Below, in pieces: positions 2,721-27,879 of a DNA stretch of 64,000 nucleotides. How positions within the stretch are numbered: position 1 is the first letter of the stretch; each line of letters starts with the position of its first letter. Under the pieces are notes generated by a model. It made no database searches, was not told the DNA's origin, and saw only the letters and a program-made list of their open reading frames with translations. Origin of the DNA: Xestospongia muta (lineage: Eukaryota; Porifera; Demospongiae; Haplosclerida; Petrosiidae); the NCBI GenBank assembly GCA_963693285.1, contig OY848917.1, positions 13,640,192 to 13,704,191 of the forward strand, written 5' to 3'. Position numbers and translations under genes: made by a program.

Positions 2721-2921
2721 TTGCTATAGACACAGATGGTTGCTATCTAAACTGACCAATTAAATTCATGTACGCAAATAAATTGTGCAAGTTTGAACTG
2801 TATTTAAACAACTTGTAGATTGAAAGATTAGATAAGATAAGAGAAGGGCAATAACCTTTTGTCAATATGGGAGAATATTGCCCACTAATTGACCAATCAG
2901 ATTTGAGTATGTTTTCAAAAC

Positions 2922-3067
2922 TCAACTAGTCTAATAATAATAGGTAATAACTACATTTCAGCTACTACTAGTTTTCTCTCCAGTTGATTAAACATAAGTA
3001 GTGTTGTTTTGTTTCTCCAAGCTCTCCTTCCATTCATCAGTATCTGCAAGCATATTAAGATATATTG
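2922..3067 (+). repeat. Direct repeat, copy 2
   Basis: Same-orientation copy of 1716-1857, about 1.2 kb downstream of it, on the other side of the Crypton-like fragment. Confidence 0.85.
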
Positions 3068-3987: not shown

Positions 3988-5067
3988 ATAAGAAGACTGG
4001 CATACTATGATGATCGTCTTGGAAGTCCTACTATTGTACTGATAGCTATGCACAATGATACTGTTCAACATCTAAAATATTATGCTCAGATTGTATACAA
4101 GACAGAAAAAAGATGTGTTCCTTTAAGAAAGTTAAAAAGTGGAAGACTTGATTTGAAGCATGTTCTTCCAGAAATATATGTGAACTACTTGTTAAGAACT
4201 GATGGAAAACTTCCTAATAAACCACCTCTCTATCTAAGAGTGACTTCAAATAAAAGATGTGCTAATGAAGAAGAATTGTCTGATCCCATATTGGTAAAGT
4301 ATGGAAAAAATGATAAACATGTCCCATTTGGTGTATGCTTACACAAAGCATTATTTTCAATCACTAATCCTCAGTTGTTGGTTGATTGGATAGAAATACA
4401 TAAACAGTTAGGAGCTGAGATAATTACAGTCTATTTAGAAAATGTACCAGAAAGTATTGCAAAGGCTGTTCAACCTTATATCAAGGATGGTCTGTTAGAG
4501 TTACTAGACTGGAACTTGAAAAAAAGAACTCGAGATTTTGGACAATCTGGTGTCATGAATGATTGCTTATATCGTAATCTTTATCGAGTAGAGTATCTTG
4601 GAATGTATGATTTAGATGAAGTGATAGTGCCTCAAAAAAATGATTCGTGGCATGAAATGATAGAATACCTGAATAGTCATTACAATTTGGATAAGTATGC
4701 TTCACTAATTTTTCAATGTTGTCCATGGCATGTTAGTACTCGTGACAAAGTAATAGGTAACAATATGTCACTTTGTCAAAATGCAAGTTTACCAATCTAC
4801 TTCACACGGACAATGAGAGATAAAGTTCCTGCTGATCATTCAAAATTGATGATAGCACCTGCTCGTACAATATCAGTACAAGTTCATCATATTGATCATC
4901 AGACTACACAACGTTTGGACAAGCATTTCTTTGTACCAAAAGAACTTGGTCTATGCCATCATTATTCGAGATCTCGTTCACCAAAAAATATATTTTATAG
5001 CAATATAATGGCTCGTTATAAAAAACAAGTTCTTGAAGGAATAAGGAAACACATGTGTCCTCTATAA
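3988..5067 (+). CDS. GT92 (DUF23) family glycosyltransferase, main exon; first exon not found
   Basis: The exon starts after acceptor ttactag with IRRLAYYDDRLGS and runs without a break to the stop at 5065-5067 (359 codons). GT92 signatures: the VPFGVCLHKAL region, NPQLLVDWIEIHKQLGAEI, GLLELLDWNL, the GQSGVMNDCLYRNLYRVEYL block and the DLDEVIVPQ acidic motif expected to bind the metal-nucleotide sugar. Members transfer galactose or related sugars in the Golgi. From about 4135 on it is nearly identical to the gene at 39708-41916, and the homology continues through the 3' flank to 5304. The N-terminal 40 residues differ more. The paralogue's membrane-anchor exon has no counterpart within reach here, so this is either a gene with a distant first exon or a truncated duplicate. 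Confidence 0.85.
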   Translation: MRRLAYYDDRLGSPTIVLIAMHNDTVQHLKYYAQIVYKTEKRCVPLRKLKSGRLDLKHVLPEIYVNYLLRTDGKLPNKPPLYLRVTSNKRCANEEELSDPILVKYGKNDKHVPFGVCLHKALFSITNPQLLVDWIEIHKQLGAEIITVYLENVPESIAKAVQPYIKDGLLELLDWNLKKRTRDFGQSGVMNDCLYRNLYRVEYLGMYDLDEVIVPQKNDSWHEMIEYLNSHYNLDKYASLIFQCCPWHVSTRDKVIGNNMSLCQNASLPIYFTRTMRDKVPADHSKLMIAPARTISVQVHHIDHQTTQRLDKHFFVPKELGLCHHYSRSRSPKNIFYSNIMARYKKQVLEGIRKHMCPL

Positions 5068-6377: not shown

Positions 6378-7412
6378 GCATATATATATTTAGTATAGTC
6401 TGGTGTTGCAGACTGTTTGCATAGAGAAGAATCGTTTGAGGACACGTGCAAATGGGTTTTGTACAGCCTGCAAACTCTTTCTCACTCTCTATCGTATCTG
6501 TTTTCATGATTCAACCACAGTCTTACATTTTATATATAGAGCTTTATTTAATACATTACATTATTTGAGTAATTGGATTTTATACATGTACATCTAAATA
6601 AACTAAAAACCAAAATTAGGACATTCGGACCCAGATTTAACTTATATTAATATTTTTCAAAGTTACACCTAATATGTAATTTAAAAATTTCTGTTATATA
6701 CAACTTATTCAATAGAATGCTCAATTGCTGGTATCGGTCATTTGTAATCACAAATTGTCCAATCCCACAAATGTTTAATAGAATGTGTCAATTGAACGTA
6801 GGGTGTTAGTATCAAATACTGTACAGTTAGTATTAACTTTACATATTGCACATATTTTTTGTACTGAAAATGCTATAAAAGTAGATTTTACTGGTAATGA
6901 GATCATATTGATCAGTGTATGATCAGTGTATATTTCCGCCATTTCATATTCTGAAAATCGATTTCCGCCATTACGCGCCGAAATCTTCCTAAGAAATGAA
7001 AATTCAAAAAACCAAAAAACCAATATTTTTTCGATTGAGTTAGGTCAGAGCGGTTGACTATTATCAATAAAATAGGACTTTGTCCTGCTTGTGTTCCCAA
7101 TTCGTCTCTCTATCTCTGATCTTTGACTCTCTGACGTTAGTCGCAGTGAGGTTTGACCCGTTCTTGCATTGTTACTCACTCTCAAGAATTGGTCCTACAG
7201 GCTCTAACCTGGTAGGTATTTTGTCTCAAAGTTGACTTTTGTCAGTTTGTCTAATACATTATATATATGGTATAAATTACGTCTCTACCTGTATACCCTT
7301 TCTTTCAAATGTTGTATAGTATACCTCTTCATATTTAAAGTAAAGTATATATATATAATCAGGCAAATCAGATTACTATTGTGCAATATTATATATTAAC
7401 ATCAGTTAAATC
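6378..7412. other. Intergenic, possible 5' leader of integrase A
   Basis: No supported ORF. A short tandem gatcagtgtat (6910-6931) is visible. The 7080-7220 part is less AT-rich and ends in a good donor (ctg|gtaggt), so it could be a non-coding first exon of the gene that starts at 7413. Confidence 0.35.
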
Positions 7413-9091
7413 ATGTCGGTGCGATTGATTGATATTGAAGACTTGGTTATACTGAAAATTGAACAAGAACAATGGACTCACGAAGACTTGTCAGAGTACT
7501 TAAAAAAAGATTTCCAAACATCAAGGAGGCTAGCATATGATCTATTGAGAGGTTTTGCAACTTAAAAAATATTCACAAAACCTCCAGGCCAACTTATCTT
7601 CAGCTAAATAATGCTGTTAGCAGGGCAGTTCATAAGGTGAATTATTTAATCAAGGGATAAGCTTGCAATTGCTTTCTTATATTATGCATAGGTTGGACCT
7701 GTCTATGGTCGAAAGACAATAACTGGCTTTTTGGCATCGGAAGGAATGCGTGCTTCTGAGGTCCGTGTAGGAAAAGTTTTAAAAGATATTACTCCTGTTT
7801 ATCATCAAGCAAGACGAAAAGACACAGCGAGGAAGTTGAATCCTATTCCATATATAGCTCAATATTTTGGGCAAAAATTACACATCGATCAAAATGAGAA
7901 GTTAGTCAGATATGGAGTAACTCACATTTGTTGCATCGATGGATTTAGTAGGCAAATTGTCAGTTTTGCTAGTATGCCTTTAAAGAACAACTTGGAGATC
8001 TATGAACATGTCTTTAGGTAAGATCACAAGAAAATGCCATATAAGATTGGCAGGATGATTTGGTAAATTTGCCAATTACTTGAAGACATACATGTAATCA
8101 TGCATGCATGTATGAAAAGTGATAAATCAATCTTCAATCCACCAAAAAGTACTTACAAAATTTACTTCTAAATAACCTATTACTATACAGTAAACTTTCT
8201 ATATTGAAGTACATCAAATGCCTTATAGACATTCAGATGAAAGCATTGCATGCATTAAGTGATATAGTGCATGTGATATAGCTAGTTATAGGACCTTATA
8301 GGAATCATCATATCAGGTTTCTTTTTATGTAGACCTCTGCTATTGAATTTTGGTATTTGGGATCAAGTGTGTGTTGATAAGGGAAAGGAATGGTATCTTT
8401 TGTTGTTTATTCAAGAAAAACTCAGCCACATTAGATATGACAAAGGAAAGCTCCACACTTACAGACACCTTCAACGATGGTAAGTTGCATGCAATCAAGT
8501 AAATTTCTTATAATCTACTCTTAATTGCAGAATCATGTGGTTGAGAGAATGCGGGAAGAATTTAATTCAAGGGTAAATTATCCCATCAAGCAATGTTTAA
8601 CAGAAATGGAGAATGACCATGTAATAGATATGGTTAATGACACACATAAATTTTGTGTGTCTTGGGTAACTATTAGAGTTGCAAATGTTGGGACAACAAT
8701 TGTTATAAAATCTTGGAATAATCATCGTATTCCGAGTAAGTTTCACAACATGTATTTTAGTTGATATTGTCTTACAGAAAAGGGTATACCTGACATACTT
8801 ATGAAGAAAAAGAATGACGTGGTTCCTGTTATGCCCACTCTGATTCCAGTAGTCAGTGACGCTGTTCGAGAATATGAGGCTCTGGGTGGCTCACTAACAA
8901 GATCCAGTTCTTTTGGTATTGATCCTTTGGAATCAAGTCCTGTTCTAAAGGAGAGAAGGCAAGAGCTATTTCATTCACAATATCCACAGTTTGACCCTGT
9001 ATTTTACAGCTGTGTTAATGATAAAAGTCATATCTTTCGCAAATGTGTGCTATACTTCATTTACATAACAGAATATCTTTCACAATATTAG
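7413..9091 (+). pseudogene. Integrase A: five-exon DDE integrase-core gene, lightly damaged
   Basis: Exons by homology and GT-AG sites: 7413-7636, 7692-8017, 8333-8479, 8531-8735, 8778-9091. Exon 1 is N-terminal DNA-binding-like (MSVRLIDIEDLVILK...). Exon 2 carries the first catalytic Asp (HIDQNEK, then CCIDGFSRQIV), exon 3 the second (CVDKGKEWYL), exon 4 the Glu (NHVVERMREEFNSRVNYPIK). Exon 5 is the conserved C-terminal tail (SLTRSSSFGIDPLE). This matches a family of animal integrase-core-domain proteins known from many fish and invertebrate genomes. Damage: a one-base shift in an A run and a TGA in exon 1, and a one-base phase mismatch between exons 3 and 4; exons 2, 3, 4 and 5 are otherwise open. 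It is followed at once by the RING gene on the same strand. Confidence 0.8.
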
Positions 9092-9107
9092 CATGATGTT
9101 TTCTTGC

Positions 9108-10403
9108 TGTAATTGTCTGTTGAAGTTCAAAGTTCATTAATAAGAACCCGAGTTATTTTACGCAAGCGCAGTTAGTACACGTTGCCAGGTTCCTGCTATC
9201 TTACGATTACATGGTATCAGACTTCATCTCACCTACTTTGATCTTTTTGACTCATTAAGGCTATATCACATCGTCTGGGCACTATATTGTGAGCTAAAAC
9301 ACATTTCACTCAATAAACTATCCTGGTGTTTCTCTCTAAGTTGATTGTTATTATAATACGTCGTCATCGGTTGTTCTCGATCGAAAACTGTTCGATTTGG
9401 ATTAAAACGTGTCTGTAAACTCTCTTGTGAGTTAATCTAACAAGCTTAAACTTAGTCTCAGGCAGGATCGAGTTGTAATATTATAGTCAGTTTATCTAAT
9501 TGTTAGCTAGTGTTAGCCCCCCATAAGGGACCATTGACCTAATTTTGGCATTTTGGTATAACCAACAGACTAGCGACTGTATCTCTCTCCAGTTGAGTTT
9601 TGACAGTCCAATTGTCACAAGACTTAACCAATCTAGTTTGCCTTGCTTTTGTGGTGTAATGTAATTTATTGTCTCTCGATATAGTTAACTCACTGGTACT
9701 CTTTCTCTCCCTGTCAGTTTGTCTAGGAACACCCTAGTTTGACCAGTGCTGTCTTTCTCTCTGGAGTTGTATGCCATTGATCCACCTTGCTTTGGTGTAC
9801 ATTCTCTATCATTTTGTTGTTTGTCCACTCCAAGAATGAGTCGTATTCAAACCCCTCCTCAATCACAGACTGTCACATTTGTCCGTGACCAACAATGCTT
9901 TGAAATAGAATTGTCAACTCGACAAATTTCTTCAAGAATGTTGTTGAGAATGTTTAATGTGAGTGCTAATTGTTTTATTTATTATTCAGTGTTCGAATTG
10001 TTGTAGGTGGATCCTGCAAATGTGTTGTTAAGAGAAGATTTTAGTGCACAGGCTTTCCTACCTGATGACGAAGGGATCTTCCACTTTCATAATCTTCAGT
10101 TCTCACCATTTATCACGATGTTTGTCGAGGGCTCTGATGCTTCGAAAAGTGCTGGTTCCTCTTCAACTCCAACAGTTCGTCCTAATAGCTCTGTACTAGA
10201 TGGTCATCCTTGTTTTCGGTGAGTATTAACAGTGAAGTTGTTCATAGTCAGATTATCTGATATTGTTATAATTGTGTGATCAATTAATTGTAATTTAACT
10301 GTCCTATAATTATTACATCATGTCTACAATATGTAAATAGTAGGCCACAAATTACTGTTTTGTAGTTTTTTTTTTTTAGGCAAGCTTACATAACACTTCC
10401 TGT
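9108..10403 (+). pseudogene. RING accessory gene, left copy, cut off in exon 3 by palindrome I
   Basis: Leader 9108-9835; exon 1 9836-9958 (MSRIQTPPQSQTVTFVRDQ, 41 codons), exon 2 10007-10218 (DPANVLLREDFSAQAFLPDD ... GIFHFHNLQFSPF), exon 3 from 10380, lost after 24 bases at the junction with the inverted repeat. Exons 1 and 2 are open here, whereas the sister copy (25560-27879) has a frameshift in each but retains the 3' exons with the RING fold. The opening resembles the beta-grasp/PB1-like N-terminus of uncharacterised proteins that end in a RING finger. The gene lies 17 bp after integrase A on the same strand, which suggests a shared element. Confidence 0.65.
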
Positions 10404-10689
10404 CGTTGTTGGTTGTTGTTGTTGCTGTTATTATCATTATTATGATCATGGCCATTATTGTTATTGTTATTTTTATTAACATTATTACTAATATTGTTAG
10501 TATTAGTATTAGTTTTGTAGTAGTAGTATTGTTATTGTTATAAGTTGTTTCTAAATTTTATAATAATTTGAAGTTCACTATTGGTTTCTCCATATTGTTT
10601 TAGTAGTAGTATAGTTATTTTAAATAATTGTTGTTGGTTATGTGTGAAACTAATTTAATTTTTGATCCTGTTATTAATTGGTACTGAAA

Positions 10690-11675
10690 GTATAAATGCT
10701 CTCTCTCAAGCAGTACTGAAGCACACTATAAATATTTAAGATATTGTATTGTATCCTCTATTATATGTGCCAAAATATGTTCCTAATCTTATTCCTCATA
10801 CAAAGGAGTTCTGCAAATATATTAAATGTTTAATAAAATATTAACCAGCTGTTCCCAACCTTATATTTATAGAAGTTTAACGCCTGACGTTGATATAGTT
10901 AATGCATTACTGACTAACTTAATTGCATTATTTTTCAATGATCAACTTCCACCTCTGCCTCATACCTGTAAAGATTCTTGTCCCCTACAAATAACCCTGT
11001 GTATAGTCTCATCTCTGAACTGTTTATCATTTAATTTTATTTCTTGAATTAAAAAAAATCATCTGATTCAGACAAAATTACAGATAATATGTTTGAGACT
11101 ATGGCTGTCTCTATCACACCTACTACTACAAACTATTCATTATGTCTATACCTAACAGTTTAGTTCCTTCATCTTAGAAGGTAGTATTTGCTGTACCTAT
11201 AACAAAGGTAAATGGACCTCAATCTGTTGATAGGTTTTGTCCTAGTTCTCTGTCACCCATTATTGATAAGCTACTTGAGAAGAATATTTTATGATATTAA
11301 GCAACAACTTCCAGGAGTCTTGTTCCTTTTTAAATAATTAATAAGTTTTTCTCCCAAAAACATCAACTATCTTAACTCAACTTCTATTCAAGATGATTGG
11401 TATAAATTTTGAACAAGATATCTTCAATTTGCCCAGCTTTCTTTGACTAAAAAATGCTTTCTTAGTGTGCCACATAAAATATTGCTACTAAAATTAGAAA
11501 ATATGGGGATTGGTAACTTTTCTACTGAGATGGATTTGTAACGATTAATCTGGTAGTGTATAATATATGTTATCACAATGGCGTTCATTTAATAGAACTA
11601 CCAGTCATTTCAGGAATACTTCAAGGGTCAGTACCAGGTCACTTGCTATTTCTAATTTACACAGATTATATTACT
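10690..11675 (+). pseudogene. LINE reverse transcriptase remnant (left arm)
   Basis: Scattered frames encode non-LTR reverse transcriptase pieces: KVVFAVPITKVNGPQSVDRF with SSLSPIIDKLLEKNIL (11174-11293), VPHKILLLKLENMGIG (about 11468-11515), and ISGILQGSVPGHLLFLIYTDY (about 11605-11670), which match the family's PVPKxxxPxxxxxxRPISL, DSVPHxxLLxKL and SGVPQGSVLGPLLFLIYI blocks. The catalytic FADD box is missing because the sequence switches to a PARP-like segment. Many stops and shifts. CR1/L2-like by motif style, not proven. Confidence 0.75.
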
Positions 11676-11927
11676 CCAGCTGAATACACAGATTACTTTG
11701 CGACTGATGCAAAATATTCCAATTCCTATGCCCATTGGCTACCTAACAGGCACAGACAAGTGTTTATAGCCAATGTACTGACTGCGCGCCTGCCCAACAA
11801 TTCACTAAGAATGCCACCAGTGAAGACAATGGAGTCGTTACCAGATGTTAATTTTAAACAAGTCTGCTACAATTCTGTAAGTGGTTTAAGTGGAGATTAT
11901 ATCATTTACATGACTTATGACAATTGA
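11676..11927 (+). pseudogene. PARP catalytic-domain fragment fused to LINE RT (left arm)
   Basis: Residues 41-123 of the 11556-11927 frame read EYTDYFATDAKYSNSYAH ... HRQVFIANVLTARL ... RMPPVKTMESLPDVNFKQVC ... GLSGDYIIYMTYDN. This follows the order of the C-terminal half of poly(ADP-ribose) polymerase catalytic domains of the PARP14/TIPARP type: Y-F-A-x-x-A-x-Y-S, then the VxVL strand, PP, the YDS/CYNS turn, and IFVxFxD. The H-Y-E NAD site is incomplete because the first half is absent. It is joined in frame to LINE reverse transcriptase residues upstream, so it is a chimeric relic, not a working enzyme. The same fusion is in the right arm. Confidence 0.65.
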
Positions 11928-12539
11928 AGGCATATTCAGCCTATCTTATCATTTATTCTGTTTAAATCATTTTAAACATTAACAAAAATGATAGAATAAA
12001 AGAAAGAGAAAGTATTAATTGTGTTGTCATGAATACACTAATTGTTAGTAGACAAACATCAAATTTGAACAAGTCTGTATATTTTGTTTCCATGGGAACT
12101 ATAAAAGTGCACTAACGTCTGTCTTGTTATAGTAGTCCAACATGTGGGATCAATTATGTTACTCTACTCAGTGTCCCAATGAAGAGCTCAGTATATAATA
12201 CTATGAGTCCTAAACCCAGAGTAATATAACAGAGTAGTAATAGTTACAGTCTTATTTTATTGTTACTGTATTATTGCATGTTCTAATTCTCATCTACACG
12301 CTATTTGATTTAAATAGCAATAATTAGTGCAGACTAACATGACACGTGTTCGTGGACATTCGCAATATTACATCACTGCACGTTGCCTTGTGGTTTTCGA
12401 AAGCTGAAGAGAAAGCGTTCTGTTGCTTTTTGTGTGTTGGCTCGCTTGTTGGGAGTCGCTAAGTATGTTCTTTATTTGAATACATATTTTTTCGCCAGTA
12501 ACTAAGCAAATTGCCTACTCTCACTAAGAACTATGTTGT

Positions 12540-13700
12540 CTCAGCTGTTGTTTTTCTGGTAAGAGTATTTACTTTTTAAATTGTTGATAATTCACAATAC
12601 TATCGTTTTTCTAGACCAAACCATGTTCTCCTTCTCCTCATTCGGTTTTCTTGCAATATATTTGCAAGTTCATGGAATCCTGGTTTATGTAAGCATATTA
12701 TATATATATGTAAGTGTACTTACAATGTATCAATTACTTTCCTGCTACTTTTCATTCCTGTTAGGATTTTTAGTGAGCAACTACTAAATTTAGAACCCAA
12801 CCAGTCTAAATTGCATACAAGGCATCAAGCTTTACCTATGTGATAATTATATGAGTCTTTGCATGCTCCACTCAGGCATGTGGTATAATAATTTTGTGGT
12901 TTTACAATGACTGTTTTTGTCTTTGTTACCAAGAAATGTTCCAACACCTCTCACTTGACCCTTTTTAGGACAGCTTTAGATTGGTAATAGTTTAGACCTG
13001 CTGGTTTTTTGAATGCATTGTTGTCTTAGTTGTCAAATTATATGAACACTTTACTCTTTTCAGAATTATTGTGTTAGGATTGACCTCTCAGAACTCTTGT
13101 GTTAGAGTTGGAAATTCAATGATTCTTCAGAGTTCAGAGCTCTCGTGTTAGAGTTAAGCATTCAAGCTGAAGTACTTGTTCTCCTTTGGTCTTCTACACA
13201 ATCTGAGTTATCACAAGTTTCTTGTGTCCAGGCGCAGGTGAGTTATTATATACAAATGTACTTAAAATTAATCAGTTGCATCTTATGACTAGACATATGC
13301 CAGTATTTTGTTGCTGTAGTTTACTCTAGGTACAGTCTTACAGGCTCACAAGCCTAAAACACACATGTAGCTAATAACCTTAGTTGACCCCTGTGATAAA
13401 TAAACATAAAGACATGTAACCAAAATAATTATTGATCTTACATGTTAAGGGCATGTATTAGTTGTACACAAGGCATGTTCAACACCTTTCACTTAACCTC
13501 ATTTTAGGACAATCTTGCTGACTAATTTTTGACATTGTCTTCTAATAGAGCTGCTGTCTTCTGGTAAGAGTAATATAGTAAAAGTTGGTTGTTTCATGTG
13601 CCATCATCTTTCTAGACAAAAAACTTTTTCTTGTTCTCTCCATTGGCTGTTGTAGAACATTATGAGAAGTCTATTAATTCCTGGTTTAGGTGAGCTATTA
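12540..13700 (+). repeat. Two diverged copies of a roughly 0.6-kb unit with splice-site-like signals
   Basis: The blocks at about 12540-12985 and 13470-13700 share, in partly shuffled order, a ctg|gtaagagta donor-like site, a tttctagac acceptor-like site, attcctggttta followed by gt and a tatata run, and a caacacctytcacttraccy motif. This suggests an internal duplication of intron-exon units upstream of the HECT gene. A short AG-bounded piece at 13185-13238 lies between. No protein family is recognisable. Confidence 0.45.
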
Positions 13701-14189
13701 TATATAAATTCACTTACAATTAAATTGGACTTACAAAAAAGTATCTAGAAAGAATAAATGAACGTCTTGCTACTGTTTGCTCAGTCTTTATGTGGTGCGA
13801 AGATAAGTTTGAAGTTTGAGAGAGCACTTTTAGTTGCCTGTAAATGTTTATGTTTTGTCAATGAGGTTAACTTATTTAACTAGGGCAGTTTCAACATGGC
13901 AGGTTTAATATCACAGGATGATGTTGAAAAGGCTCATTCTCATCCCTATCTCATTGTCAGCATCTCATGACCCAGGACTAGCTCTGGTGAGACTGAATTG
14001 TGTATGTATACTGTACATGCATACCAAGTATATCTAGTCACTTGCATTCAAGAGCACAATCGTGTCTACAGATCAGTAGACATATTTTATTTGTGTAGTT
14101 ACTGCTATCACAGTCTCTAGTACACATCTGCATGCAGATATATAGGTTGAGAAATAACCTTTCATATATGTCTACCTATGTATAGATAA

Positions 14190-16477
14190 TGCAGGTGCTA
14201 CAGTTCAACAAACATGTGATGTTGCACTGAGCAATCTCCAAAGAGCCAGAGAAAGGCTCACTGCTAGAGCTCGAGAATCTAAAAATGAAAGTTCTTTTAG
14301 CAGGGAATTCACTCGAACGTCATCTTTCTTAGGACAGAAGAGAAGTTCTGTGAAACTATTGGGCAAAGCAACCTTGTAAATGTGCAGTGAGAACATGGAC
14401 ACATAAATTTGTTTGTTTAAGTCGTTGTGCCCAAGACATCATACCAACTACTGATAGAAAGATGCTTTGTTGGAAGCTGGGCTTGGGGAAAAGAAGATTG
14501 TCATTGAAGATGTTGACTGCTCAGGGGAAGAGTTTCGTGAACTATTGCATGCAGCATTTCCAAAATTAAAAGATTCTGGTGGTGGCTTCATATTTGCAAA
14601 GTGCAAGTGTAATTCACGGTTTTTAGAACCACTCTCATCTATGTGCTTAACCTCACCAAGACGTTTACAAGAAAGAATTGGTAACTCTAGAACATACATC
14701 ATCCCATTACAGAGAGATTTAGACTTGACACCCTGTCAACTTTCACCTGGGGTAAGGCTTGCAGATTATTAATCTGAACATATTTATCATACATGTACAC
14801 ATAGCCTGTGGAGAAGTGCCTATCATGTGCTGAGGATGTCCCTGTAACAGTGTTATGTCAGCATTTGTTATCATGTATAGAGCCAAAGACTGTTTTAAAA
14901 TTGTCAACAATTGTGACTTTTCTCCCACTAAACTTATCAAAGTATGCACAAGTTATATTTTGACATAAACAGGACTTTCGTTAATAGGTTGTCTTCAAAG
15001 GAGAACAGGGTGAAGATGGTGGAGGACTAAGAAAAGTACTTTGGCACCTTTTCTTATTACAACTGAAGGAATGTTACTTTGAGGGTGAAGAGAATAAGAA
15101 AGTAGTTCGACATGATATTCTTTGTCTTCAGGTAAATAATGTGTGAAATTGTTCAAATGATATTAATGGTTTTAAATGGATAAAATCTGTTGCTGTTAAT
15201 TATTTTCTCTCAACTCCATTGTAGACAAATGTTTTTTCACAAAATTGGCTGTTTGATGTCTGTATCTCTTAGTCAAGGAGGATCAGGCTATCCTTATATC
15301 TGTTAGGGGGTTTATGATTACCTTTGTGGCAAGGAGCTTAACGAAATCACTATTGACTACACTATTATACCTGATTATGACATCAAGCTATTAGTAAGCA
15401 AGGTAAATAAGTCATGATGACAACATTATAATTACTTCTAATTTAAGAGTGTATTCATCTGAGACTTACTGAATTAATCTAATTCTGTTGTGTAGTTTCT
15501 TTATTTTATGTGTTAAAAAGAATGACAGTACTGTATTGTTTATAGACTTTAGATGCTGTCAGCAATGAGGACATCCAAGCCCTATCAATGGATGCAATAG
15601 AAGTACTGTCCAACTGTGGGTTCAACAGGGGTCCCACAACTTTGACACTCGAAGATCGTTCTACTTTGGTCCATAGTATCACAATGTACTATACAATACT
15701 TCGATCAAAAGCCAAGCTTGATCAACTATGGAACGGACTTCAAACACTTGGTGTGGCAGATGCCATGAAGTCTCACCAGAATAGTCTAGAATCCCTTTTC
15801 ACTGCTCCTTCACACCCTACTGAATTGACTCCAGGTATCAAGTAGTACATGTACTCTCTGGCAATGTGTTTTTCATGTATTCCTAATAGTTATTATCAAG
15901 TCATTGTTTCAAAACAGAGTTCGCTACTCTGAGAACTCAAGTCATAGAAACGAAAAAGAGATGGCAACATATATACTTTTTGGTGACTATTTAGAGGATT
16001 GCAAAGGTAAGTAGTTCAGAAATTCTAACTAAAAGGCGACTTGTATCTACCAATAATGTTAAGACTTTCTCATGATGAGGTTGGTCGTGGTTTTAGCACT
16101 CTAAGCAATTACACAATTAAATTAGTTTACAGCCTCCACTCTCTAAGTGATTTCTTTGATGTCATTCATTAGTTACTTCATGTATACATTCACTAAGATT
16201 GGTTATAAGACTTGAATACACTGTTTTTTATGTACTTTCACATTCCTTACAGGTGAGTGTAATGAAGTTTCCTTGAAGGATGTTCTCAGTTTTTTTACTG
16301 GTTCATCAGCTGTACCTCCACTTGGGTTTGATAAAGGTCCAACTATGTCATTCAGCCACAATGCAGTTTATCCAACAGCCTCTATGTGTGTTTTCTCACT
16401 CACTCTACCTACACGATACTACAATGACTACAATCAATCAGGCGTTTACTTGTCATGGTGGGTTTGGCTCAGTTTGA
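14190..16477 (+). pseudogene. HECT-domain E3 ligase-like gene (G2E3-like), left copy with catalytic Cys
   Basis: Exon order follows HECT-only proteins of the G2E3-like type common in fish and invertebrates. Segments: ARERLTARARESK linker (14193-14380); EAGLGEKKIVIEDVDCSGEE (14479-14752); CLSCAEDVPVTVLCQH Cys/His segment (about 14810-14945); HECT N-lobe FKGEQGEDGGGLRKVLW (14988-15132); GGSGYPYIC-stop-GVYDYLCGKE (15210-15402); ALSMDAIEVLSNCGFNRGP (15546-15834); VRYSENSSHRNEKEMATYI (15918-16008); FFTGSSAVPPLGFD with YPTASMCVFSLTLPTRY (16253-16477), where the Cys is the expected ubiquitin-thioester residue, ending HGGFGSV. Frameshifts near 14385 and 14465, one before GGSGYP and one before HGGFG, plus an in-frame TAG make it inactive as written. 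The shared breaks occur in both arms. Confidence 0.8.
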
Positions 16478-16481
16478 TTAA

Positions 16482-16770
16482 TGTTATGCTCAATATTATA
16501 TTATGCTCTTGATGAAAGTATGTCAATCACTCATTGTATTCATTTTATGTTCAATTTATTTGTTTTTGGACAGTATAGTCTCCCTTGTATACTCTTGATG
16601 AGATTTTGGTAAAACGTTTTGTCAATCAATAGTTTATTTTATGCTCATTGTATTAATTTTATGTTCAATTTATTATTTGTTTTGGGACAATATAGTCTTC
16701 CTAATAATGCTTGTATACTCTGGATGAGATTTTGGTAAAATGTTTTGTCAATCAATAGTTTATTTTATGC
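16482..16770 (+). repeat. Tandem repeat, two units (114 and 126 bp) plus a partial one
   Basis: Units 16531-16644 and 16645-16770 share tcattgtat, attttatgttcaattta, tatagtct, gagattttggtaaaa and gttttgtcaatcaatagttt. A partial unit precedes at 16482-16530. It lies between the HECT stop and the end of integrase B, in the palindrome spacer. Confidence 0.8.
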
Positions 16771-18090
16771 TTGATCTGTTTATATTTTTGGAAGGAAAAA
16801 AGTGAAAATGTTTATGTAACTGTTTGTGTTCTACACCAAATTTTGTATCTGGATATTGTCGAAGTTCTTCTACTAATAGGATTCTTTGATGTTCAGTTAA
16901 GAAATTAGAGGGAAGATCAGGTACGATAACAGCATTACTATCATCATCAGTACTCACTGGTCCACTACATCAATGCCATAATCACAATCCTATAAATAAA
17001 AGCACCTAATAAGTAATTCATTTCTTTCTAAATAGTATTCACAACAGTATGCTAATCTAACTTTACACATGGTATAATGTTACAGACTTAAAGTCTGCTA
17101 TGCTTTGTAAACTACATAGGTTAACATACATATTGTATAACATGACACTGATTACAAAATATACATACTTCAGTAGTTCCTGTAACTGCTAGTACTGCCG
17201 TACTTGTTGGTGTTTCCATCCTAACTTGAGTCATTCCCAGAATCCATAGCTGATGTGGTGTTTGGTTATGTGCTGTACGGAGAGGATGGTTACACCATAC
17301 CTCACGAAACATGTCCACTTGACATTGTATAATTGGTAGATAAACATAGTGAAGGGCACATAGATCAACTTCACTACCTGGATCTAATAGACTGACTTCT
17401 TCCAGCGAATAGAATAGGAAGTAATAGAAACTAATGCAACCTTGCAAAAGATCTCTCCATAAACGTTCTATCCTTTGGTTGTGTACACTTCTACCACAGA
17501 TGAAACTTCTTTCTGGACCTCTTTCGGAATGCTCGAGCATGAAGCGTCCAACTAGAACATTTTCTCCTCCATAGTCTGAACGTACACAAGATGATAGTCC
17601 ATAACACTTGACAGCTTGCAGAAATACATTAAAAACAGTCACATCTTTGTTATTAGAGGCTACCTTTAAGTAAACTGGAACTCGGCTATATCCATCTATA
17701 CCTCCATGTATTACTAACCGCCACCTTATAAGCTTGTGATATCCATCAATGTGCCACAATGCATTGGGGCTTGCAACGTTATATTGCCTACAATGAAGAG
17801 TGCTATGTAGCCTAGTTTCAAGTCCCAAGGGGTCAACACGACGAATTGACTCTCTCACTCTTTCTCTTTGCAATATCACACCATTAACCTTAAGCAGTCT
17901 GTATTGATTGTATGCCACAAGCAGGTAAGCATGTTACAATCTCCTTAACTAGGTCATCCAAATCTTGATTAGTTATTTCACTGAATCGATTGAATTCTAT
18001 CCCAAACTCCTTTAGTTTTCGTTGAATCGTACGTGTAGAGCAACCAATCAATGTTGCAATGTCAGTTTCTTTAAATCCATTTTCAACCAA
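16760..18090 (-). pseudogene. Integrase B: DDE integrase-core protein with HTH, one frameshift
   Basis: On the minus strand 18090-17890 encodes an HTH region (VENGFKETDIATLIGCSTRT, then RKLKEFGIE and ITNQDLDDLVKEIV). About 17905-17920 a one-base frameshift separates it from the catalytic frame (17918-17121): [15 protein letters not shown], then D58 in [17 protein letters not shown]115 in RSDYGGEN, E151 in QRIERLWRD. The end, after an intron, is probably 16957-16760 (TDDDSNAVIVPDLPS, a Ser/Pro tail like those of relatives). The family is the animal integrase core domain group whose members carry HGG(I/V)DGYSR and RSDxGGEN. The HTH reading frame begins directly at the inner boundary of the right palindrome arm, so its own promoter and first codons are missing. 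Confidence 0.85.
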
Positions 18091-18094
18091 CCTA

Positions 18095-20240
18095 TATCAA
18101 ACCCAACTGGAGGTACAGCTGATGAACCAGTAAAAAAACTGAGAACATCCTTCAAGGAAACTTCATTACACTCACCTGTAAGGAATGTGAAAGTACATAA
18201 AAACAGTGTATTCAAGTCTTATAACCAATCTTAGTGAATGTATACATGAAGTAACTAATGAATGACATCAAAGAAATCACTTAGAGAGTGGAGGCTGTAA
18301 ACTAATTTAATTGTGTAATTACTTAGAGTGCTAAAACCACGACCAACCTCATCATGAGAAAGTCTTAACATTATTGGTAGATACAAGTCGCCTTTTAGTT
18401 AGAATTTCTGAACTACTTACCTTTGCAATCCTCTAAATAGTCACCAAAAAGTATATATGTTGCCATCTCTTTTTCTTTTCTATGACTTGAATTCTCAGAG
18501 TAGCGAACTCTGTTTTGAAACAGTGACTTGATTATAACTATTAGGAATACATGAAAAACACATTGCCAGAGAGTACATGTACTACTTGATACCTGGAGTC
18601 AATTCAGTAGGGTGTGAAGGAGCAGTGAAAAGGGATTCTAGACTATTCTGGTGAGACTTCATGGCATCTGCCACACCAAGTGTTTGAAGTCCGTTCCATA
18701 GTTGATCAAGCTCGGCTTTTGATCGAAGTATTGTATAGTACATTGTGATACTATGGACCAAAGTAGAACGATCTTCGAGTGTCAAAGTTGTGGGACCCCT
18801 GTTGAACCCACAGTTGGACAGTACTTCTATTGCATCCATTGATAGGGCTTGGATGTCCTCATTGCTGACAGCATCTAAAGTCTATAAACAATACAGTACT
18901 GTCATTCTTTTTAACACATAAAATAAAGAAACTACACAACAGAATTAGATTAATTCAGTAAGTCTCAGATGAATACACTCTTAAATTAGAAGTAATTATA
19001 ATGTTGTCATCATGACTTATTTACCTTGCTTACTAATAGCTTGATGTCATAATCAGGTATAATAGTGTAGTCAATAGTGATTTCGTTAAGCTCCTTGCCA
19101 CAAAGGTAATCATAAACCCCCTAACAGATATAAGGATAGCCTGATCCTCCTTGACTAAGAGATACAGACATCAAACAGCCAATTTTGTGAAAAAACATTT
19201 GTCTACAATGGAGTTGAGAGAAAATAATTAACAGCAACAGATTTTATCCATTTAAAACCATTAATATCATTTGAACAATTTCACACATTATTTACCTGAA
19301 GACAAAGAATATCATGTCGAACTACTTTCTTATTCTCTTCACCCTCAAAGTAACATTCCTTCAGTTGTAATAAGAAAAGGTGCCAAAGTACTTTTCTTAG
19401 TCCTCCACCATCTTCACCCTGTTCTCCTTTGAAGACAACCTATCAACGAAAGTCCTGTTTATGTCAAAATATAACTTGTGCATACTTTGATAAGTTTAGT
19501 GGGAGAAAAGTCACAATTGTTGACAATTTTAAAACAGTCTTTGGCTCTATACATGATAACAAATGCTGACATAACACTGTTACAGGGACATCCTTAGCAC
19601 ATGATAGGCACTTCTCCACAGGCTATGTGTACATGTATGATAAATATGTTCAGATTAATAATCTGCAAGCCTTACCCCAGGTGAAAGTTGACAGGGTGTC
19701 AAGTCTAAATCTCTCTGTAATGGGATGATGTATGTTCTAGAGTTACCAATCCTTTCTTGTAAACGTCTTGGTGAGGTTAAGCACATAGATGAGAGTGGTT
19801 CTAAAAACCGTGAATTACACTTGCACTTTGCAAATATGAAGCCACCACCAGAATCTTTTAATTTTGGAAATGCTGCATGCAATAGTTCACGAAACTCTTC
19901 CCCTGAGCAGTCAACATCTTCAATGACAATCTTCTTTTCCCCAAGCCCAGCTTCCAACAAAGCATCTTTCTATCAGTAGTTGGTATGATGATGTCTTGGG
20001 CACAACGACTTAAACAAACAAATTTATGTGTCCATGTTCTCACTGCACATTTACAAGGTTGCTTTGCCCAATAGTTTCACAGAACTTCTCTTCTGTCCTA
20101 AGAAAGATGACGTTCGAGTGAATTCCCTGCTAAAAGAACTTTCATTTTTAGATTCTCGAGCTCTAGCAGTGAGCCTTTCTCTGGCTCTTTGGAGATTGCT
20201 CAGTGCAACATCACATGTTTGTTGAACTGTAGCACCTGCA
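18095..20240 (-). pseudogene. HECT-domain gene, right copy, lacking the catalytic Cys end
   Basis: Mirror of the left HECT gene with the same frameshifts and in-frame stop. The coding sequence stops at SSAVPPLGFD; everything after, including the thioester Cys and C-terminal tail, is replaced by the HTH part of integrase B, which runs in the same direction. Differences from the left copy are minimal: K to E in SKAKLDQ and an extra Ile codon in AQDIIIPTTD. The pseudogene state therefore predates the inverted duplication. Confidence 0.8.
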
Positions 20241-22502
20241 TTATCTATACATAGGTAGACATATATGAAAGGTTATTTCTCAACCTATATATCTGCATGC
20301 AGATGTGTACTAGAGACTGTGATAGCAGTAACTACACAAATAAAATATGTCTACTGATCTGTAGACACGATTGTGCTCTTGAATGCAAGTGACTAGATAT
20401 ACTTGGTATGCATGTACAGTATACATACACAATTCAGTCTCACCAGAGCTAGTCCTGGGTCATGAGATGCTGACAATGAGATAGGGATGAGAATGAGCCT
20501 TTTCAACATCATCCTGTGATATTAAACCTGCCATGTTGAAACTGCCCTAGTTAAATAAGTTAACCTCATTGACAAAACATAAACATTTACAGGCAACTAA
20601 AAGTGCTCTCTCAAACTTCAAACTTATCTTCGCACCACATAAAGACTGAGCAAACAGTAGCAAGACGTTCATTTATTCTTTCTAGATACTTTTTTGTAAG
20701 TCCAATTTAATTGTAAGTGAATTTATATATAATAGCTCACCTAAACCAGGAATTAATAGACTTCTCATAATGTTCTACAACAGCCAATGGAGAGAACAAG
20801 AAAAAGTTTTTTGTCTAGAAAGATGATGGCACATGAAACAACCAACTTTTACTATATTACTCTTACCAGAAGACAGCAGCTCTATTAGAAGACAATGTCA
20901 AAAATTAGTCAGCAAGATTGTCCTAAAATGAGGTTAAGTGAAAGGTGTTGAACATGCCTTGTGTACAACTAATACATGCCCTTAACATGTAAGATCAATA
21001 ATTATTTTGGTTACATGTCTTTATGTTTATTTATCACAGGGGTCAACTAAGGTTATTAGCTACATGTGTGTTTTAGGCTTGTGAGCCTGTAAGACTGTAC
21101 CTAGAGTAAACTACAGCAACAAAATACTGGCATATGTCTAGTCATAAGATGCAACTGATTAATTTTAAGTACATTTGTATATAATAACTCACCTGCGCCT
21201 GGACACAAGAAACTTGTGATAACTCAGATTGTGTAGAAGACCAAAGGAGAACAAGTACTTCAGCTTGAATGCTTAACTCTAACACGAGAGCTCTGAACTC
21301 TGAAGAATCATTGAATTTCCAACTCTAACACAAGAGTTCTGAGAGGTCAATCCTAACACAATAATTCTGAAAAGAGTAAAGTGTTCATATAATTTGACAA
21401 CTAAGACAACAATGCATTCAAAAAACCAGCAGGTCTAAACTATTACCAATCTAAAGCTGTCCTAAAAAGGGTCAAGTGAGAGGTGTTGGAACATTTCTTG
21501 GTAACAAAGACAAAAACAGTCATTGTAAAACCACAAAATTATTATACCACATGCCTGAGTGGAGCATGCAAAGACTCATATAATTATCACATAGGTAAAG
21601 CTTGATGCCTTGTATGCAATTTAGACTGGTTGGGTTCTAAATTTAGTAGTTGCTCACTAAAAATCCTAACAGGAATGAAAAGTAGCAGGAAAGTAATTGA
21701 TACATTGTAAGTACACTTACATATATATATAATATGCTTACATAAACCAGGATTCCATGAACTTGCAAATATATTGCAAGAAAACCGAATGAGGAGAAGG
21801 AGAACATGGTTTGGTCTAGAAAAACGATAGTATTGTGAATTATCAACAATTTAAAAAGTAAATACTCTTACCAGAAAAACAACAGCTGAGACAACATAGT
21901 TCTTAGTGAGAGTAGGCAATTTGCTTAGTTACTGGCGAAAAAATATGTATTCAAATAAAGAACATACTTAGCGACTCCCAACAAGCGAGCCAACACACAA
22001 AAAGCAACAGAACGCTTTCTCTTCAGCTTTCGAAAACCACAAGGCAACGTGCAGTGATGTAATATTGCGAATGTCCACGAACACGTGTCATGTTAGTCTG
22101 CACTAATTATTGCTATTTAAATCAAATAGCGTGTAGATGAGAATTAGAACATGCAATAATACAGTAACAATAAAATAAGACTGTAACTATTACTACTCTG
22201 TTATATTACTCTGGGTTTAGGACTCATAGTATTATATACTGAGCTCTTCATTGGGACACTGAGTAGAGTAACATAATTGATCCCACATGTTGGACTACTA
22301 TAACAAGACAGACGTTAGTGCACTTTTATAGTTCCCATGGAAACAAAATATACAGACTTGTTCAAATTTGATGTTTGTCTACTAACAATTAGTGTATTCA
22401 TGACAACACAATTAATACTTTCTCTTTCTTTTATTCTATCATTTTTGTTAATGTTTAAAATGATTTAAACAGAATAAATGATAAGATAGGCTGAATATGC
22501 CT

Positions 22503-22754
22503 TCAATTGTCATAAGTCATGTAAATGATATAATCTCCACTTAAACCACTTACAGAATTGTAGCAGACTTGTTTAAAATTAACATCTGGTAACGACTCCA
22601 TTGTCTTCACTGGTGGCATTCTTAGTGAATTGTTGGGCAGGCGCGCAGTCAGTACATTGGCTATAAACACTTGTCTGTGCCTGTTAGGTAGCCAATGGGC
22701 ATAGGAATTGGAATATTTTGCATCAGTCGCAAAGTAATCTGTGTATTCAGCTGG
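22503..22754 (-). pseudogene. PARP-like fragment, right arm
   Basis: Identical at protein level over all 123 residues of the RT-PARP fusion frame to the left copy (11556-11927). See that entry for motifs. Confidence 0.65.
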
Positions 22755-23740
22755 AGTAATATAATCTGTGTAAATTAGAAATAGCAAGTGACCTGGTACT
22801 GACCCTTGAAGTATTCCTGAAATGACTGGTAGTTCTATTAAATGAACGCCATTGTGATAACATATATTATACACTACCAGATTAATCGTTACAAATCCAT
22901 CTCAGTAGAAAAGTTACCAATCCCCATATTTTCTAATTTTAGTAGCAATATTTTATGTGGCACACTAAGAAAGCATTTTTTAGTCAAAGAAAGCTGGGCA
23001 AATTGAAGATATCTTGTTCAAAATTTATACCAATCATCTTGAATAGAAGTTGAGTTAAGATAGTTGATGTTTTTGGGAGAAAAACTTATTAATTATTTAA
23101 AAAGGAACAAGACTCCTGGAAGTTGTTGCTTAATATCATAAAATATTCTTCTCAAGTAGCTTATCAATAATGGGTGACAGAGAACTAGGACAAAACCTAT
23201 CAACAGATTGAGGTCCATTTACCTTTGTTATAGGTACAGCAAATACTACCTTCTAAGATGAAGGAACTAAACTGTTAGGTATAGACATAATGAATAGTTT
23301 GTAGTAGTAGGTGTGATAGAGACAGCCATAGTCTCAAACATTTTAACTGTAATTTTGTCTAAATCAGATGATTTTTTAAATTCAAGAAATAAAATTAAAT
23401 GATAAACAGTTCAGAGATGAGACTATACACAGGGTTATTTGTAGGGGACAAGAATCTTTACAGGTATGAGGCAGAGGTGGAAGTTGATCATTGAAAAATA
23501 ATGCAATTAAGTTAGTCAGTAATGCATTAACTATATCAACGTCAGGTGTTAAACTTCTATAAATATAAGGTTGGGAACAGCTGGTTAATATTTTATTAAA
23601 CATTTAATATATTTGCAGAATTCCTTTGTATGAGGAATAAGATTAGGAACATATTTTGGCACATATAATAGAGGATACAATACAATATCTTAAATATTTA
23701 TAGTGTGCTTCAGTACTGCTTGAGAGAGAGCATTTATACT
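22755..23740 (-). pseudogene. LINE reverse transcriptase remnant, right arm
   Basis: Mirror of 10690-11675 with the same stop pattern; the 73-residue frame at 23603-23382 is identical to that at 10826-11047. Confidence 0.75.
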
Positions 23741-23879
23741 TTCAGTACCAATTAATAACAGGATCAAAAATTAAATTAGTTTCACACATAACCAACAACA
23801 ATTATTTAAAATAACTATACTACTACTAAAACAACATGGAGAAACCAATAGTGAACTTCAAATTATTATAAAATTTAGA

Positions 23880-24037
23880 AACAACTTATAACAATAACAA
23901 TACTACTACTACAAAACTAATACTAATACTAACAATATTAGTAATAATGTTAATAAAAATAACAATAACAATAATGGCCATGATCATAATAATGATAATA
24001 ACAGCAACAACAACAACCAACAACAACGACAACAACG

Positions 24038-24072
<35 letters not shown>

Positions 24073-24116
24073 AATAATAACAATAATAATAATTATTATA
24101 ATAATTATAATCTGAT
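23880..24116. repeat. Microsatellite at the outer edge of palindrome I
   Basis: Long run of ACA/AAC and AAT/ATA triplets. The corresponding left-arm tract (10404-10545) is shorter and directly abuts RING exon 3. Poly-Leu/Val/Ile frames here are simple-sequence artefacts. Confidence 0.95.
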
Positions 24117-24193
24117 GAGTTAAACATAGGTCAATGAGAACAGAAAGTAGATAGTATCTTGAGAATATCACCTTACCAAGTACCTTCATATAA

Positions 24194-24235
24194 TGAATGA
24201 AAGGCACTAAAGTGCCGAACCTCGCTGCAGTTTCT
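24194..24235 (+). repeat. Dispersed repeat end with gcactaaagtgc palindrome
   Basis: Segment with aatgaaaggcactaaagtgc then aacctcgctg recurs in inverted form at 62749-62795 (acagcgaggttaagcacttt and on). Looks like the conserved terminus of a repeat family; no ORF. Confidence 0.5.
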
Positions 24236-24333
24236 AAGCTATTTGTAAATGCTATGCCAGCTTAGGCCCAGCTATGATGTTACTAGGTAGCATTACAAAA
24301 AGTTTATTAATATTCAAATTATTGATGGATCAC

Positions 24334-24640
24334 GTGTTGTTTGATGACTCAGCATTTCTCTTCAATCAAAGGGAAAAAAAGCTTTGTCGTTTATTGGGTA
24401 CTTTGCACTCTGATTGACATGTCTGTGAAGCTGATAATGAGTAAGTAATAGTATCCTTCAATTGCCAAGCAAGATTAAGTGCTAGGCTCGTGATGAACGT
24501 TTCTCTGAGCCTTTACATGACGCTTTAAAAAGTTTCAATATTTCATATACAAAAATTATTGTAACTTGAAAATGAAGCATTCTTTGGAAACGTCCCGTAG
24601 TACAACTATAAATCAATATATTATCTATTAGTAGCAGTTT
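24334..24640 (+). pseudogene. Tail of an RPA-like OB-fold gene (dispersed copy)
   Basis: About 300 bp matching, in inverted orientation, 59745-60045, which is the 3' end of the RPA-like gene there. The plus strand reads CC-MTQHFSSIKGK, compared with CCFVTQHFSSIKGKQ in the other copy. Only the C-terminal end is present. Confidence 0.65.
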
Positions 24641-24999
24641 TTCCAGTGCTTTGAGACGTTTTCTGAATGCGTTACTTTGCTCAAAGTCCACAAAACACTT
24701 TTCAGAACTTTTCTAACGATTGCTTCGACCAACGGCTTTCTGTTTTGCTGATCCGTATTCATCTAAGATTCTCTACAGCATACTAAAAAATCTCCACATT
24801 AAGTTTTTTACTTTTCGAGAAACAGCACTTTGACTGTGCAGCCTGAAAATTCTTTTGCGAGTTTTAAGCTTTTGTTTTCCTTGACGATGTTCTTGATACT
24901 ACTGTTGTAAAGTCCACATGTTTTTCTATTCATTGCTAAACTTTGGTAGCTGCTAAGGCTTCGCTTGCCAAGTTATAGTAGTTCAAAGGTAACAGGCAG

Positions 25000-25560
25000 T
25001 CCTGACACACACACTAACACACACATACACACACACACACACTGACAGACTACAGTACCCTCGCTTTGCGCCCACGCACAGCGAGGTTAATAAGAAGAGA
25101 ACCATTCTGTTCGTTGCCACGCCCATTTTGACCCCTAATTGACCCTCATCTTAAATACTGAAATAGAGAGAATTTCTAGTATGATCGAGTATCGAGACTT
25201 ACCAAAATTGAAGATTGCTAATTGAATAACTAAAATTTTGAATTGCAAATTCACAATAAAATTATGAATTCACGAATTGCAATAATCTTGAACTCTCGGT
25301 AAAAACGTGAATTGAGAAGTGGAATAATCGCGAATTCACAGTAAAATTGTGAATTGTGAAATATGATAATCGTGAATTTCCTGGTAGTGTCATGAGTTTT
25401 GAGTGTGCAATAATCGTGAATTACTGGTAAATCGTGAATTTTGAGCGTTCAATAATCGTGAATTACTGGAAAATCGTGAATTTTGAGTGTTCAATAATCG
25501 TGAATTTGATGCCTATTTTTGTCGTGGTTTGTATTCCATATTTGTCGTGGTTTGTATTCC
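25000..25560. repeat. (CA)n tract and degenerate aatcgtgaatt tandem repeats
   Basis: A CA microsatellite lies at about 25000-25045. From 25230 to 25505 a loose motif of about 42 bp recurs, built from ataatcgtgaatt, actggtaaatcgtgaatttt and gagtgttc; the last copies (25405-25505) are almost perfect. Then a 25-bp unit, tttgtcgtggtttgtattcca, occurs twice (25520-25563). No coding potential seen. Confidence 0.8.
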
Positions 25561-27879
25561 ATATCAAAGTTCATATAATAAGAACACAAGTTATTTTACG
25601 CAAGCGCAGTTAGTACACGTTGCCAGGTTCCTGCTATCTTACGATTACATAGTATCAGACTTGATCTCACCTACTTTGATCTTTTTGACTCATTAAGGCT
25701 ATCTCACATCGTCTGGGCACTATATTGTGAGCTAAAACACATTTCACTCAATAAATTATCCTGGTGTTTCTCCCTAAGTTGATTGTTATTATTATACGTC
25801 GTCATCGGTTGTTCTCGATCGAAAACTGTTCGATTTGGATTAAAACGTGTCTGTAAACTCTCTTGTGAGTTAATCTAACAAGCTTAAACTTAGTCTCAGG
25901 CAGGATCGAGTTGTAATATTATAGTCAGTTTATCTAATTGTTAGCTATTGTTAGCCCCCCATAATGGACCATTGACCTAATTTTGGCATTTTGGTATAAC
26001 CAACAGACTAGCGACTGTATCTCTCTCCAATTGAGTTTTGACAGTCCAATTGTCACAAGACTTAACCAATCTAGTTTGCCTTGCTTTTGTGGTGTAACGT
26101 AATTTATTGTCTCTCGATATAGTTAACTCACTGGTACTCTTTCTCTCCCTGTCAGTTTGTCTAGGAACACCTAAGTTTGACCAGTGCTATCTTTCTCTCT
26201 GGAGTTGTATGCCATTGATCCACCTTGCTTTGGTGTACATTCTCTATCATTTTGTTGTTTGTCCACTCCAAGAATGAGTCGTATCGCAACCCCTCGTCAA
26301 TCACAGACTGTCACATTTGTCCGTGACCAAAAACGCTTTGAATAGACTTATCAACTCGACAAATTTCTTCAAGAATGTTGTTGAGAATGTTTAATGTGAG
26401 TGCTAATTGTTTTATTTATTATTCAGTGTTCTAATTTTTGTAGATCCTGCAAATGTGTTGTTAAGAGAAGATTTTAGTGCACAGACTTTCCTACCTGATG
26501 ACAAAGGGATCTTCCCACTTTCATAATCTTCAGTTCTCACCATTTACCACAATGTTTGTCGAGGGCTCTGATGCTTCGAAAAGTGCTGGTTCCTCTTCAA
26601 CTCCAATAGTTCATCCTAATAGCTCTGTACTAGATGGCCATCCTTGTTTTTGGTGAGTGTTAACAGTGAAATTATATAATGTTATTGGTACATAATTAGA
26701 TCTGTAGTTGGAAGCAAAAAAAGACATCTACTGAAAATCATTAAGGCCAGAATGAAAAAAGTAGGGAGAAAACCGGAATTTGAAATGAGTGTTGAAGCTT
26801 TCATTGAATGAACTTCAGAAAAATGGACTAGAGGTAATTAATGTGAATGTGAATATAACATTGTTTGCATTGGGGTTGGACTTGTGGTGTAACTGGGCTG
26901 GCCTTTGGTTACTTTGCTTCTTATATACCATTATAGTGGCTACCAATTGCAATATGCCTATTTGTTTTCCAAATACCAATTTGTATTTTTCTTAACAGAA
27001 TGTGCTGCAACTCTAATTATTATTTTTTTCTTATTATTTGAAAAGGTTTAGACTTTTGGAAACAGAATGCTAGAAAATTTTATGCCATTCCCAAGTCAGA
27101 TATTACAACTCCCACCGTCAGTAATAAGTGAAAACGAGTTGAAACTGAGGATGATGATGAACCTGTGAACACATGTCTCTCTGAAATAAGAGACAAACTC
27201 AACCTTTTTATTTACTGTCACAAAAGATTTAAAGATTCCTATAGCTCTCAAAACTGTTTTCCAGAGCACAGTTAATTGCAAGATATGCTTTGAGACTCCC
27301 ATGAAACCTCCTAATAGCTCTGTACTAGATGCTTCGGGAAGTGCTGGTTCCTCTTCAACTCCAACAGTTTGTCTTAATAGCTCTGTACAAGATGGCCATC
27401 CTCATTTTCGGTGAGTATTAACAGTGAAGTTGTTCTTTACTGTTCTTAGATGATGTTCATAGTCAGATTATCTGATATTATTATAATTGTGTGATCATTT
27501 AATTGTAATTTAACTGTCCTATAATTATTACATCATATTTACAATGTGTAAATAGTAGGCCACAAATTACTGTTTTGTATTCATATCTTCTTTTAGGCAA
27601 GCTTACATAACACTTCCTGTAGGCCTACTGCATGTGATGTATGCGTGTTTGCAGTGCAAGTTGTGTCATACCATTCCAATAAAACCACCTGTAATGATGG
27701 CTGATTGTTGTAAAATAATAATTGGATGTGGAAATTGTGTGGACAGATTGTATGTCTCAAGGCATGTTGATGTACCTTGCCCGATGTGCAAATCAAGTTG
27801 CCCACATTCAAATTATTTGCGTATCAATGATATTGATGAACTTTTAAATGTACTCTCAGACATAAAAAGTTATATATAA
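25560..27879 (+). pseudogene. RING accessory gene, right copy, with RING exon
   Basis: Same leader as 9108-9835, then exon 1 at 26274 with a one-base loss, exon 2 from 26444 with a one-base gain. Downstream 27044-27308 encodes LDFWKQNARKFYAIP, an acidic linker (ETEDDDEPVNTCLSEIRDKL), and the start of a zinc site (VNCKICFETPMKPP) that is cut by a second piece of exon 2 (27309-27412). The last exon 27597-27879 is intact: CKLCHTIPIKPPVMMADCC ... IIGCGNCVDRLY ... VPCPMCKSS, a variant RING/U-box-like finger with Cys pairs spaced as in a cross-brace. Relatives in fish and invertebrates are uncharacterised proteins ending in such a finger and expected to act as E3 ubiquitin ligases. A broken gene or a mosaic of partial copies. 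Confidence 0.65.

Follow-up and report, generated by a model that had tools for sequence, protein, structure and literature searches.

A 64,000-nucleotide stretch of the genome of the sponge Xestospongia muta (contig OY848917.1, positions 13,640,192 to 13,704,191; hereafter the window, numbered from its first letter) contains two integrase genes, A and B, in the company of genes resembling HECT-type and RING-type E3 ubiquitin ligases. The genes are genuine, yet they do not make up one element: one DNA transposon family comprises integrase B and the HECT gene, a second comprises integrase A with the RING-like gene, and the window shows damaged copies of both, fused to each other. The two kinds of element have separate ends, target duplications and copy sites, integrase and ligase-type gene are paired recurrently in this genome, and the D, D and E of the integrase and the cysteine of the HECT domain are conserved. 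Overall, we put at about 85% the probability that the window holds damaged, joined copies of two separate transposons, an IS3EU/GingerRoot-type HECT element and a palindromic RING element.

Integrase B and the HECT element

Integrase B lies on the minus strand at 16763..18096, and its DDE core (17124-17933) matches the Pfam integrase family rva_4 (PF24764) at 4e-75; the gene also includes a helix-turn-helix-like frame (17893-18096) and a probable last exon (16763-16969). D228, D285 and E321 are invariant in 23 aligned relatives, D285 and E321 being separated by 35 residues, and no His or Cys upstream of the core is invariant among these 23 sequences, i.e. there is no HHCC motif. In the protein collection, 3367 of 7995 scored candidates match at E ≤0.001. 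The HECT gene occupies 14158..16509 on the plus strand, and an earlier sequence-only reading was right to ascribe to it a thioester-cysteine motif, found in the C-lobe at 16216-16509 (Pfam, 3.2e-5). When HECT exons of the family to which this element belongs (family A) are joined, the Pfam HECT match reaches 9.8e-7, above the cut-off. The gene is made up of a conserved N-terminal domain predicted to be ubiquitin-like, a zinc-knuckle-like motif and the HECT domain, and there are one or two such genes per element.

The pairing of integrase and HECT gene is general in this genome. Within the 158-Mb assembly searched (28 contigs), 31 of the 35 strong rva_4 matches (at least 100 bits) lie no more than 10 kb from a HECT-family exon, the distance used to define a pair, and 40 of 46 HECT exon matches lie equally close to an integrase. 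Random placement would be expected to give such pairing at 0.6% per locus or less, and of 150 rve matches none is as near as 10 kb to a HECT exon, while two come within 20 kb. Copies of a single element are not independent, hence the number of subfamilies weighs more in this count than the number of copies. Three subfamilies carry HECT genes, the pairing in subfamily C being by distance alone, and their integrases share 44% (A-B), 49% (A-C) and 45% (B-C) identity. Despite this divergence all three retain the HECT cysteine, the motif reading YPTASTC in subfamilies A and B, LATSSIC in subfamily C, and the subfamily B C-lobe is 47% identical to that of A over 59 residues (3e-18).

Two further observations concern these genes. 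In subfamily C, a frame that precedes the HECT gene (L089:2337-2792) has zinc-finger-like Cys/His spacing. Contigs from elsewhere yielded relatives in one public record only, labelled as a bacterial sponge symbiont: an rva_4 integrase and HECT-like N-terminal exons on short contigs (L070-L072, L102-L104), which are probably host contamination.

Integrase A, integrase B and the HECT gene are all multi-copy in the genome, as the sequence-only reading held. HECT-element copies were collected by searching the genome with the window arm, and the flanks of the many copies recovered gave the true end of the element, TATGGAATACAAACCACGACAAA. A pattern search for family A ends listed inverted pairs, of which ten were taken. 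The ends are TATGG...CCATA, and nine of the copies are 14.5-17.8 kb long; the tenth, on C3 (assembly places are written C1, C3 and so on, with position), deviates by a single mismatch in one of its ends and measures 24.8 kb because a RING element is nested within it. Exact 6-bp target duplications flank six of the ten (CACTTC, GTAACT, CTTATG, GTAGGG, AATATG, CTCCTA). The copy at C1:11918305-11934653 has terminal inverted repeats (TIRs) of ~617 bp at 99.2% identity, and in it two inverted HECT regions, 95-98% alike, flank one integrase. The same 435-amino-acid integrase frame is present at 6 of 12 loci of the HECT-element type. Subfamily B has ends of its own type, TATGAGAGGT (TATGAG..CTCATA), with exact 6-bp duplications in four of the six copies read (GTTTAC, TATATT, AGGATA, GTCATT); one of its copies has a TIR of ~0.9 kb with 78% identity.

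Judged by ends, duplications, TIRs and integrase core, the HECT elements of families A and B appear to be of the IS3EU/GingerRoot type. Families A and B both conform to its TA..TA termini and its usual 6-bp target duplications, and their integrases to its DDE core without an upstream HHCC motif. A study of fungal IS3EU elements describes ends TAYGG..CCRTA and alpha-kinase and TET/JBP genes carried as cargo (PMC12730594), and its figure of >30 bp for the TIRs of TET+ elements also accommodates A and B. Accessory genes in IS3EU are thus already known; what sets the present elements apart is their cargo, a HECT-type E3 gene present once or as two inverted copies. Our literature searches listed no HECT-bearing transposon among their results and found no paper in the library covered with both IS3EU and HECT, although Repbase and Dfam, which were outside the search, may hold such an element.

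Polinton/Maverick elements (~15-20 kb, with long TIRs and an integrase) share 6-bp duplications with the elements described here, whereas the TA..TA ends of the HECT elements differ. In addition to the integrase, Polintons carry genes for a protein-primed DNA polymerase, an ATPase, a protease and capsid proteins. The copy at C1:11918305-11934653 showed nothing resembling a polymerase or capsid frame, and apart from the integrase none of its listed frames exceeds 126 amino acids (frames of at least 60 amino acids in L041 and at least 50 in L069; spliced genes were not searched singly).

Integrase A and the palindromic RING element

Integrase A is encoded by several exons at 7413..9091 on the plus strand, two of which (7692-8018 and 8525-8761) match rva_4 weakly, at 2.2e-5 and 6.3e-6, and over the aligned parts its identity to the integrases of subfamilies A, B and C is only 21-26%. 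Both integrases of the earlier reading are confirmed. RING-gene DNA is found no more than 10 kb away from 19 of 27 integrase A matches. The RING element itself is an 8.2-kb near-perfect palindrome present in seven copies, and at all seven places the gene order is integrase(+), RING(+), RING(-), integrase(-). At C1:17679750-17687977, arms of 3.33 kb at 99.7% identity enclose a 1.58-kb centre in which there are two different RING-like exons, 31% identical to one another. The ends of the element are GATCAGTG...CACTGATC, and four of the seven copies are flanked by exact 6-bp duplications (CCTAAG, AGTCAG, ATATTT, CTCGAT). Shared termini and target duplications, which the sequence-only reading had suggested seeking by comparison of loci, are thus found for HECT and RING elements alike.

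The 6-bp duplications of the RING element, four exact and three near, agree with the IS3EU/GingerRoot type, but we do not file the element there because its ends break the TA..TA rule. Foldback-type elements are likewise composed mostly of very long inverted repeats; the RING element differs from them in that both arms are coding and it has an integrase of its own. RAG1/ProtoRAG-type transposases are a known case of a mobile element with its own RING ubiquitin-ligase domain; the present elements encode ligase and integrase in separate genes, and their integrase belongs to a different superfamily.

In the window, a RING gene had been placed 17 bp beyond integrase A, and this did not hold. The RING-like gene there is truncated to its 5' exons (9836..10219, plus strand), with a likely start codon near 9836, and the RING cysteine pattern is absent from frames of at least 20 codons at 8000-10420. 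The RING-like zinc-finger exon lies outside 7413..18095, at 27559-27876 (plus strand), where the pattern C-x2-C ... CCK-x-IIGC-x2-C ... C-x2-C is seen and Pfam gives no match.

The sequence-only reading had united both integrases and both E3 types in a single large undescribed element. Such an element would account for the adjacency of the four genes in the window and for two further cases, at C6:4.2 Mb and C3:7.25 Mb, in which integrase A and a HECT exon are no more than 10 kb apart. However, these three are the only such places, and at each of them the two elements are adjacent or nested. A HECT exon is missing from the 10-kb surroundings of five of the seven RING elements. At C3, the RING element nested in a HECT element is bordered on both sides by a duplication of its own, CTCGAT, and is thus an independent insertion, the kind of finding that the sequence-only reading itself had named as refuting its proposal. 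In this genome the families recur together as integrase-HECT and integrase A-RING pairs and not as all four jointly, and the ends, copy sites and target duplications peculiar to each pair refute the one four-gene element, to which we assign next to no probability. Integrase elements carrying E3-type genes do exist, as recurring mobile units with ends and duplications.

The joined copies in the window

RING-element DNA flanks the window HECT element on both sides. On the left, 6921..10400 (plus strand) is 97.8% identical to 750-4257 of the L073 copy and comprises the end GATCAGTGTATATTTCCGCC at 6921, the whole left arm and ~180 bp of the centre; on the right, 25564..27872 (plus strand) is a rearranged piece matching L073 6769-5506 and 5406-4923 (minus) and 3968-4509 (plus). 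Between them is the HECT element, a palindromic derivative of the IS3EU type (10401..25563, without assigned strand), the left end of which has been lost at a TTG array and the right end CCATA of which is doubled (25540, 25563). Its arms, 10402-16338 (plus) and 18090-24027 (minus), form a 5.94-kb inverted repeat of 99.6% identity with 19 mismatches, and the 1.75-kb centre holds most of integrase B; unlike the C1:11918305 copy, the element repeats its left half on the right. HECT exons consequently stand on both sides of integrase B, so the single HECT gene of the sequence-only reading is present but doubled. The second copy (18090..20270, minus strand; the far bound is approximate, mirroring the left copy) has its C-lobe exon cut off at 18090. 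Some ~400 bp of the right-hand HECT of C1:11918305-11934653 is absent from both window copies (in the left arm, after 14886) and from several left-hand HECT copies elsewhere, and is present in some copies.

The right end of the HECT element contains an 893-bp insertion (24195..25087, without assigned strand), to which stretches at 59740-60041 are related, and a terminal region with 42-bp tandem repeats (25088..25563, minus strand). Within the insertion, 24334-24640 forms an inverted repeat pair with 59740-60041 and, since it sits in this insertion within the HECT element, probably represents a further mobile element. The copies in the window appear decayed: exon 1 of integrase A is split over two frames where the L073 copy has one intact frame, and the integrase B frame has 270 amino acids against 435 at six other loci. 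The ~400 bp missing from both HECT copies point the same way, although several left-hand copies elsewhere share this gap. As to the order of events, we infer that the HECT element inserted into the RING element, followed by inverted duplication and loss.

Palindromes this perfect could be artefacts of assembly or reads, as the 99.6% identity of the window arms might suggest, along with the other HECT copy that has two left-type ends, at C1:33.43 Mb, which lacks a target duplication. We consider this improbable, since the window arms differ at 19 positions and the seven RING palindromes occupy different sites with exact or near 6-bp duplications across both ends. The palindromes would instead have arisen by inverted duplication during repair or by aberrant transposition.

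A second large inverted repeat (27921-37081), with several kb per arm at ~97% identity, adjoins the RING-element remnant. A frame within it (30244-30498) has no Pfam match and resembles, by eye, the start of a glycosyltransferase family 92 gene at 3988-5064 (5.3e-28), of which there is near-identical DNA ~36.8 kb further on (40826-42154). An rve integrase core at 584-823, in an open frame of 404 amino acids, has a close second copy ~14 kb outside the window (C1:13626791).

A possible ligase role in transposition

Several observations weigh against the interpretation given here. Four of the 35 strong rva_4 matches have no HECT exon within 10 kb (C1:3586726, C1:11912555, where it is 10.4 kb away, C6:7274899 and C12:3783282), and six of the 46 HECT exon matches have no integrase at that distance. 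Exact duplications are absent from four of ten family A copies and two of six subfamily B copies, and those of the remaining three RING elements are near-duplications, two off by one base and one with three extra bases. The conserved HECT N-terminal exon has no Pfam match in 39 sequences and neither do the inner HECT pieces of B and C, which are therefore called HECT by likeness to A, while a paralogous RING-like exon in a genome copy matches zf-RING_2 at E 0.0012, below the curated cut-off. Furthermore, a stop codon is present in six out of 26 closely similar copies of a single HECT exon. Within family A, the ratio of nonsynonymous to synonymous polymorphism (pN/pS) is 0.35 for the integrase and 0.32 to 0.77 for HECT exons with one at 1.44, one exon being without synonymous change and one represented by two sequences only; these values are not decisive.

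The stop codons would also fit E3-type genes that are passengers, host genes captured without a role in transposition, for which the pN/pS values are inconclusive; the alpha-kinase and TET/JBP genes of the fungal members show that IS3EU elements can bear other accessory genes. We think this unlikely, because the HECT gene and its cysteine have been kept with the integrase across subfamilies at 44-49% integrase identity and because an E3-type gene of another kind travels with a separate lineage. The persistence of the pairing over such deep divergence, and the different E3-type gene of the other lineage, favour a function for the ligases.

The conserved core and the target duplications imply a DD35E integrase that acts on the TATGG...CCATA ends and makes 6-bp staggered target cuts; the RING element, each arm of which encodes a distant rva_4 integrase together with a RING-like gene, likewise has 6-bp duplications. 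The ligases would be active and kept because they aid transposition. The likeliest ways would be ubiquitination of a host factor responsible for silencing the element or for repairing its breaks, or control of integrase turnover. A helper role of this kind, via host factor or integrase, is a sound possibility at somewhat less than even odds. More tentatively, related integrase elements could have independently taken up two unrelated ligase types, HECT and RING, as working parts of transposition, one lineage moving as a gene-bearing, near-perfect palindrome with equal ends.

If so, integrases of this group would repeatedly depend on ubiquitination, e.g. for removal of a host silencer or disassembly of the integrase-DNA complex, and transposons may bring their own protein-tagging tools. 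Multi-copy HECT and integrase genes without an assigned role could both be parts of one transposon type. Gene-bearing palindromes with target duplications bear on the origin and survival of long palindromes, and elements with known ends, complete copies and two ligase types offer a system for testing ubiquitination in DNA transposition.

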